Below are positions 53,597 to 54,536 of a DNA stretch of 64,000 nt, piece by piece (positions within the stretch are counted from its first letter, which is position 1; every line of letters starts with the position of its first letter). The position numbers were made by a program, and so were the translations under genes. Where the stretch lies: NCBI GenBank assembly GCA_945861275.1, contig CAMATZ010000012.1, positions 1-64,000 on the forward strand, given 5' to 3'. The notes under the pieces are model-generated. The model saw only the letters and a list, made by a program, of their open reading frames with translations, ran no database searches and was not told the origin of the DNA. Source of the DNA: Bordetella parapertussis. Lineage in GTDB: Bacteria; Pseudomonadota; Gammaproteobacteria; Burkholderiales; SG8-41.

Positions 53597-53688
53597 CGCT
53601 GCCGGGCATGCGTTTGGCGCTCAGGCATCAACAGCGCTACACTATGCCGCGATTTCCACAATTATTTTGACTCACGAGGAAGACCATT

Positions 53689-54366
53689 ATGCCCAAGCCT
53701 GCCGCTACAACCCAACTGCAAATCGATATCGTTTCTGACGTGGTTTGACCCTGGTGTTACATCGGGCAGCGCCGGCTTGAAGCGGCGTTAAAGCTGCTGC
53801 AGCAGCAGTTGCCCGATGTGAAGCCCGCCGTGCGCTGGCTGCCTTTTCAGTTGAATCCCGATCTGCCGGCGGAAGGTATTCCGCGCGTGGATTACATCGC
53901 TCGCAAATTCGGCACGCGCGGCAAGGGTAATTATGAGCGCGTGGCCAAGGTGGGCGAGAGCGTGGGCATTCCGTTTGCGTTCGACAAGATAGAGGTGCAG
54001 CCCAACACGCTGAACGCGCATCGCCTGCTGCATTATGCCGGGCAGCACCAACGGCAGGAAGCAGTGGCTGAAGTGTTGTTCAACGCCTATTTCATCGAAG
54101 GCGCCAATCTCACCGACGTTGATACGCTGGCGGGCATTGCGAAAAAAGCCGGGCTCGATGGTGACGCCGCCAAAACCTATCTGGCGAGCGATACCGACCG
54201 TGACACGGTCGCCGGCGCGGATGTGGATGCGCGCAACGCCGGCATCGGTGGCGTGCCGTTTTTTATTTTCAATCACGCGGTCGGCGTGTCGGGCGCGCAG
54301 GAGCCGGAGCAGTTGTTGCAGGCCATGTTGCAGGCGATGCAGCCGCCGGTGGCACGCACCGGTTAA
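53689..54366 (+). CDS. FrnE/DsbA-family oxidoreductase, probable selenoprotein (TGA at codon 20)
   Basis: 225 aa if TGA 53746-53748 is read as selenocysteine. ATG 53689 with SD gaggaag. The frame gives LQIDIVSDVV-U-PWCYIGQRRLEAAL, exactly where FrnE-family proteins have CPWCYIG; the second Cys is kept. After the TGA the frame is open for 206 codons and fully FrnE-like: VRWLPFQLNPDLPAEGIPR, NTLNAHRLLHYA, VLFNAYFIEGANLTDVDTLAGIA, and the cis-Pro loop GIGGVPFFIFN near residue 185. A hairpin fitting a bacterial SECIS lies 19 nt after the TGA. The other reading is a nonsense mutation; exact placement at the catalytic Cys, an undamaged frame, and the hairpin argue against it. Cytoplasmic thiol/selenol redox enzyme by family. 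Confidence 0.75.
53768..53789 (+). promoter_or_regulatory. Candidate bacterial SECIS hairpin
   Basis: Stem CGCCG (53770-53774) / CGGCG (53783-53787), extended by G-U and A-U pairs (53769:53788, 53768:53789), closes an 8-nt loop gcttgaag that begins with G. The loop begins 26 nt after the TGA, inside the range known for bacterial SECIS elements. A second possible stem (ctggtg / cgccgg) nearer the TGA competes with it. Confidence 0.55.
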
Positions 54367-54384: not shown

Positions 54385-54536
54385 TGTAGCCCGGAAGAAG
54401 CGCAGCGTATTCCGGGAGAGTGTCGAACAATGACCGACATTGCGCTTCAACGGATGCGAATATCCGCGCGCAATTGCAGGCGATGATTACTGTGGCCAGG
54501 GTTCCCCGGAATACGCTGCGCTTCTTCCGGGCTACA
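54385..54536. repeat. Inverted repeat of the 'gtagcccggaagaagcgcagc' type
   Basis: Arms 54385-54416 (tgtagcccggaagaagcgca...) and 54504-54536 are reverse complements over ~32 nt, 87 nt apart. Similar gtagcccgg-type repeats are widespread intergenic elements. It sits between the FrnE gene and the convergent mfd end and could stop transcription from both sides. Confidence 0.85.

Follow-up and report, generated by a model that had tools for sequence, protein, structure and literature searches.

The closest described relatives of the gene discussed in this article are the Sec-containing DsbA-like proteins (COG2761/PF01323, with a UxxC motif) described in the Sargasso Sea and GOS metagenomic surveys (PMC1088965, PMC2398784), and a 2026 review lists a DsbA-like selenoprotein form 1 (PMC13188914). 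PMC1088965 describes the SECIS elements of its new families as stem-loops that follow the TGA and look like bacterial SECIS, and they are compared here by that description only. The consensus for the bacterial element, as given in the Figure 2 legend of the review, asks for a G in the first two loop positions, a loop of 3-9 nt, a stem of at least 4 bp, 16-37 nt from the UGA to the apical loop and an MFE of at most -7.5 kcal/mol (PMC13188914); in the E. coli element, as described in PMC8659212, U17, G23 and U24 are fixed, with U17 and G23 binding SelB, and some bacterial SECIS are noted to lie outside the consensus (PMC13188914, PMC12013277). The gene presented here shares with form 1 the Pfam family, the UxxC motif and Sec as the first residue of the active site, and it carries Sec where FrnE (the Cys form; PDB 5cnw and others) has its first Cys; however, form 1 comes from marine metagenomes, whereas the FrnE-type gene belongs to a Burkholderiales lineage and is found in 66 of the 74 genomes of one family. 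It is a new branch of a published kind of selenoprotein (DsbA-like/COG2761, UxxC), and in the titles and abstract openings of the papers that searches of the open-licence PMC literature brought up I found no report of an FrnE-type Sec gene in Burkholderiales or of the split architecture proposed below.

The window, by which I mean the whole stretch of 64,000 nucleotides that was analyzed, comes from a genome of 5.5 Mb in 95 contigs (96.65% complete), and the features that define the gene within it are the following.

53676-53680, + strand: Shine-Dalgarno-like GAGGA, 8 nt 5' of the ATG at 53689 (direct reading)
53689-54366, + strand: frnE-type selenoprotein gene, 225 residues with Sec at 20 (direct reading, PF01323 and the match to FrnE 5cnw)
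53746-53748, + strand: UGA at codon 20, taken as the selenocysteine codon, UPWC being residues 20-23 (family conservation and Sec machinery)
54256-54258, + strand: codon of Pro190 within GVPFF (alignment to the GVPFF of FrnE 5cnw)

Direct reading bears out what a sequence-only reading of this DNA had described, namely a good Shine-Dalgarno sequence (it reads GAGGA), a start at ATG 53689 and an in-frame TGA at the first active-site Cys of an FrnE/DsbA-family protein (U-P-W-C-Y-I-G), followed by an intact frame, although this frame has 205 sense codons before the TAA at 54364-54366 and not the 206 that had been counted. That reading also foresaw that annotation would truncate the gene, and a table-11 call indeed returns a 185-aa ORF beginning exactly at TTG 53809, with the active site lost. 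The protein matches the DSBA domain PF01323 at 143 bits (cut-off 25.6) and FrnE 5cnw aligns at residues 4-216 (E 3.1e-41), the CPWC and GVPFF motifs being common to both; Pro190 is presumably the cis-Pro that faces the active site. By homology the product should be an FrnE-type dithiol-disulfide oxidoreductase, acting as a disulfide oxidoreductase or isomerase in which Sec20 would attack and Cys23 would resolve, and, since no signal peptide was seen by eye, it is probably cytosolic. Just 3' of the gene lies a perfect 30-bp inverted repeat, TAGCCCGGAAGAAGCGCAGCGTATTCCGGG, at 54387-54416 (+) and 54505-54534 (-), which has these 2 matches in the window and looks like an interspersed palindromic repeat.

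The gene was sought in the window's own genome and in 148 relatives (149 genomes in all), matches were obtained in 103, and 89 loci were read from them: codon 20 is TGA in 69 (the window's included) and TGT or TGC in 19, with one locus set apart. This last one (L106, genome G131), a DsbA-like protein of 30% identity, likewise has TGA at codon 20; its contig is 3.2 kb long, and its genome shows no SelB above the cut-off. The 69 TGA loci come from 68 genomes, 67 of the loci from the window's family and 2 from a second family, and the remaining genomes of the window's family have no match (7) or only a short Cys fragment (G058). Most of the named relatives are uncultured Betaproteobacteria/Burkholderiales (SG8_41, for example), and 67 of the 80 loci from these relatives carry TGA. 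In an enlarged set, 73 sequences with TGA (the window's included) stand against 31 with TGT or TGC at codon 20, L106 again set apart, so that the Cys/Sec alternation is clear; the homologues more distant than the Sec forms have Cys there, and the UGA aligns with the conserved redox Cys of homologues, which is the mark of a bacterial selenoprotein. The tree places all 73 Sec forms in one clade of 77 (support 0.90) together with four Cys forms, three of which (L098, L099 and L101) are paralogues in genomes that also hold a Sec copy. The fourth, L175, comes from a MAG labelled Sterolibacterium and has TGT in place of the Sec codon, Val at residue 47 and a long branch; nested among Sec forms within a group of six (support 0.99), it is likely to be a Sec-to-Cys reversion. 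Several public MAG records titled Bordetella parapertussis carry the gene (L139, L140, L148, L149, L152, L174, L186 and L191), and by this gene they fall among the uncultured Betaproteobacteria, so they have probably been given the wrong species name.

For the part of the frame that follows the TGA, nine pairs give dN/dS values of 0.09-0.27, which means that it is under purifying selection, and further stops inside the matches occur only at the C-terminal end, in four sequences. The machinery is likewise in place: profile searches of the window's own genome return SelB (455 bits against a cut-off of 242, on contig C6), SelA adjoining it (586 bits), tRNA-Sec (74.5 bits, with the anticodon tca, i.e., UCA, by ARAGORN) and SelD (427 bits), the last with its own in-frame TGA. 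Among the genomes with the TGA form, SelB exceeds the cut-off in 62 of 68, compared with 5 of the 16 read genomes that have the Cys form only; the 6 TGA-form genomes without it include the 99%-complete G013. The sequence-only reading had proposed three checks of a Sec-containing FrnE/DsbA protein with UPWC, and two of them upheld it (selA, selB, selC and selD are present, and Cys and Sec alternate among homologues), while the third, a SECIS within 53740-53800, lent no support, as described below; where it had named decay of the gene in relatives as a ground for refutation, conservation was found; its argument that the TGA was unlikely to be a random nonsense mutation also holds up, the same codon and motif being shared by 69 of the 89 loci read. 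Since the Sec machinery is present, the TGA is conserved at codon 20 and more distant homologues have Cys, it is near certain that the FrnE-type gene encodes a genuine selenoprotein.

Other genes of the same genome also belong to this picture. In one row and on one strand of contig C6 (L047, 7545-12220) stand selA, selB, a thioredoxin-reductase-like FAD gene and tRNA-Sec; the product of the FAD gene, between selB and selC, scores 222 bits, below its model's cut-off, and a link between it and the FrnE-type protein would be speculation. A formate-dehydrogenase-like gene on contig C22 (L254) has an in-frame TGA and a hairpin with the triloop GUC at 19 nt and is probably another selenoprotein gene. 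The selD of the lineage has an ordinary SECIS: in all 16 selD loci that contain TGA the loop position at 20 nt is GUU, in all 14 Cys selD loci it has other letters, and the hairpin is present in the MFE fold of 6 of the 8 Sec selD loci displayed.

The recoding signal of the FrnE-type gene itself is less ordinary. RNAalifold on 69 Sec sequences returns the helices P1 (7-10 with 97-100), P2 (offsets 14-19 with 67-72, extending to 9 bp in the window) and P5 (alignment columns 80-85 with 91-96, loop CGUGC), in which the 3' strand of P5 runs straight into the 3' strand of P1 while the 5' strand is interrupted by P2, and P2 in turn encloses a hairpin P3 and a variable P4. In the window these lie as follows.

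53753-53756, + strand: 5' strand of P1 (GGUG) of the proposed split SECIS; 98.8% of cells paired, three of four pairs never varying
53759-53767, + strand: 5' strand of the P2 arm, ACAUCGGGC, complementary to 53811-53819; codons 24-25 are among the least synonymously variable in Sec forms
53768-53789, + strand: P3 hairpin of 7 bp with loop GCUUGAAG, inside the P2 arm; present, not beyond synonymous recodings and not Sec-specific
53811-53819, + strand: 3' strand of the P2 arm, GCCCGAUGU, holding codon 43
53823-53839, + strand: P5 hairpin, GCC n GC [CGUGC] GC U GGC, the proposed SelB-recognized SECIS hairpin; codons 47-49 nearly invariant, and found in MFE folds
53840-53843, + strand: 3' strand of P1 (UGCC), directly continuing the P5 3' strand (RNAalifold and pair counts)

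Evidence that these helices matter comes from synonymous changes counted on the tree (140 codons scored, median 0.21 per sequence). In the 73 Sec forms the least variable codons are 43, 48, 49, 47, 24, 25 and 42, followed by 27 and 17, and the first seven of these are the strands of P2 and P5. No synonymous change is seen at codon 43 in 69 sequences or at codon 48 in 73; codon 43 is GAT in 69 of 69 sequences with Asp although GAC makes up 60% of Asp codons beyond codon 52, and codon 47 is GCC in 70 of 71 with Ala against 50% GCG, a residue that is Ala in only 2 of the 31 Cys forms. Where the Cys forms can be scored, codon 25 is as invariant as in the Sec forms (1 change in 29), codons 48 (4 in 25) and 49 (3 in 21) change more than in the Sec forms but still little, and codon 42 changes 6 times in 20. 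Most of P1 is dictated by the protein sequence and so gives little test of pairing; one base, at the third position of the Leu51 codon, is freer, and it is G or A in 68 of 73 compared with 68% of Leu codons beyond codon 52.

Folding agrees with this picture. In unconstrained single-sequence MFE folds, P2 appears in 66 and P5 in 64 of the 73 Sec forms and both in 61 (12 fold without both helices), compared with P2 in 2, P5 in 1 and both in 1 of the 27 Cys forms that could be scored (4 of the 31 were dropped as gapped), while synonymously recoded Sec forms keep the two together in 3.9% of cases; the helices had been chosen on 69 of the 73 Sec sequences, leaving four outside the discovery set. 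P2 is more stable than its recodings (mean z -2.15 in Sec forms vs. -0.58 in Cys forms) and P5 weakly so (-0.87 vs. -0.29), while the window's own P5 is no more stable than its recodings (p 0.68). P2 and P5 are constrained at the RNA level, and this constraint is largely confined to the Sec forms. In 41 non-redundant rows, 98.8% of P2 cells and 99.0% of P5 cells are paired, and compensatory changes (columns numbered from 1) are seen at P5 80-96 (G-C/A-U), P5 84-92 (G-C/A-U) and P2 17-69 (C-G/U-A). For the five-helix structure as a whole, 7 pairs have changed on both sides, against a mean of 3.5 in shuffles, of which 1 in 500 is as high; when the partners are shifted by 2 columns, 6 such pairs and 15 cells are counted, vs. 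7 pairs and 15 cells for the structure, and pair types are not unusually numerous. Pairwise covariation against a tree-based null across 11175 column pairs brings no helix pair to E<0.05, with 80-96 ranking second (E 3.0), 49-61 third (E 3.5) and the top pair, 51-73 (E 0.1), in no helix.

How could a hairpin so far from the UGA serve as a SECIS? As the consensus asks, P5 has a stem of 4 bp or more and a 5-nt loop whose second letter is G, with U next, but it lies 80 nt from the UGA in the window, and 83 nt in 54 of 69 sequences, instead of 16-37 nt, and the 5' strand of P5/P1 is broken by an arm (P2 and what it encloses) of 59 nt. With this arm left out, the distance becomes 21 or 24 nt and the MFE in the window -8.7 kcal/mol, set against the -7.5 of the consensus (P5 alone gives -6.2 to -7.7 depending on the flank). 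The published criteria as coded here are then passed by 71 of 73 Sec forms and 15 of 31 Cys forms, a test that is permissive by itself because 76% of Sec recodings pass too. P5 also resembles the SECIS of selD and of the formate-dehydrogenase-like gene in its GUN triloop, short stem, unpaired base and further stem, although those stand 19-20 nt from their UGA and have no inserted arm. A SECIS split by an inserted arm is favored because P5 shares this plan and, once the arm is out, lies at a usual distance and passes the coded criteria in nearly all Sec forms, and on the sequence evidence I hold such a split to be reasonably likely. The mechanism would be that SelB and tRNA-Sec recode the UGA to Sec20 in UPWC under the direction of a bacterial SECIS of unusual build. 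P5, with its CGUGC loop, would be the apical hairpin of this element; it stands 80 nt downstream of the UGA and would come to a normal distance because the 5' strand of the P1/P5 stem is interrupted by the 59-nt arm formed by P2 and all that lies inside it. P1 would close the junction, and P5, by analogy, would be the hairpin that SelB contacts. The displacement is perhaps explained by residues 21-28 (PWCFIGKR), which may leave no room for a hairpin sequence.

A simpler proposal is that the signal is an ordinary SECIS, with P3 binding SelB 26 nt after the UGA and P2 and P5 serving as accessory enhancers or stabilizers. This hairpin is the one that the sequence-only reading had put forward, and it exists as described, 53768-53774 pairing with 53783-53789 around an 8-nt loop that begins with G; in the window a hairpin at this usual distance satisfies the published criteria at -14.8 kcal/mol, and the P3 pair 28-37 stands 18th among 11175 for covariation (E 39). 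The further claim that it is a SECIS found no support. The fold z-score of 53740-53800 is -0.16, and when the window is recoded synonymously, 26 of 100 recodings give an equally good or better fold at the same distance (p 0.26); hairpin strength at that distance is alike in 69 Sec forms (mean z -0.37) and 19 Cys forms (-0.49), and a qualifying hairpin at the usual distance is found in only 33 of 73 Sec forms, compared with 22 of 31 Cys forms and 59% of Sec recodings. The P3 pair 24-41 forms in 46 of 69 sequences, and RNAalifold restricted to the first 60 nt yielded nothing convincing that was specific to the Sec forms. Given the recoding p, the like z-scores and criteria that are satisfied less often in Sec forms than in Cys forms or recodings, P3 does not look like a selected feature; as the sole SECIS it was rejected, and I regard the proposal with P3 as the SelB site as unlikely.

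It could also be argued that the constraint on P2 and P5 has nothing to do with recoding, since a regulatory RNA, an antisense or overlapping gene or a DNA site can produce the like, and that the true SECIS is too degenerate to see. Cys forms often have GTG at codon 48 (19 of 31) and CGC at codon 49 (18 of 31), and L098, the Cys paralogue nested in the Sec clade, has kept a stable P5 (-10.6 kcal/mol). Against this, P2 and P5 are nearly absent from the MFE folds of Cys forms, P5 is weak in the other three of the four nested Cys copies (L099, L101 and L175, -0.6 to -4.3 kcal/mol, compared with a Sec mean of -9.1), and the strong matches to a covariance model of the element in the 74 family genomes are the FrnE-type gene and two Cys paralogues, which makes a cause outside recoding improbable. 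That the gene is a pseudogene, that the TGA is a sequencing error or that it is read as another amino acid is suggested by nothing more specific than the in-frame stop itself, and such explanations are already largely contradicted by a TGA shared across 68 genomes, by other stops confined to the C-terminal end, by the low dN/dS and by a full Sec machinery in the window's genome, leaving them hardly any credence. The account that I prefer, of an FrnE-type Sec20 oxidoreductase whose UGA would be recoded by SelB through a SECIS split by an inserted arm, is in full a likely one.

Searches were also made beyond the gene. Weaker matches to the covariance model (28 listed, E 8e-4 to 0.05) were read in 19 cases: five are one coding sequence, which I take from its protein sequence to be glutamyl-tRNA-reductase-like, and were rejected as another user of the element; L248 in G058 is a truncated copy of the FrnE-type gene with TGC; and the other 13 bear no likeness to selenoprotein genes. 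Among 321 genomes of the class, 26 have a match to the protein at E<=1e-20, and the 25 besides the window's own have no stop inside the match. Across 398 genomes of the phylum a DNA pattern gave matches in 13, counting the window's own; of the other 12 three were read through and have no open frame, the rest being judged by their matched letters alone. Rfam gives nothing above threshold at the site, and the five microRNA families and Vault that appear at E up to 10 were judged to be chance.

The spacing between the UGA and its hairpin is a basic rule both of bacterial Sec insertion and of the programs that find selenoproteins. I lean toward the view that the element represents a new structural class of bacterial SECIS, in which a hairpin displaced by about 80 nt would be returned to working distance by a three-way junction; if true, searches that assume 16-37 nt would misplace or miss the signal. 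An element that obeys the spacing rule in space but not in sequence would show how a recoding signal can be reconciled with the constraints of the protein, would lend itself to testing how SelB and the ribosome come together, and would point to a reason why certain known selenoproteins do not fit the consensus model. Within its family the gene is common, 66 of 74 genomes carrying it, and ORF callers easily truncate it.
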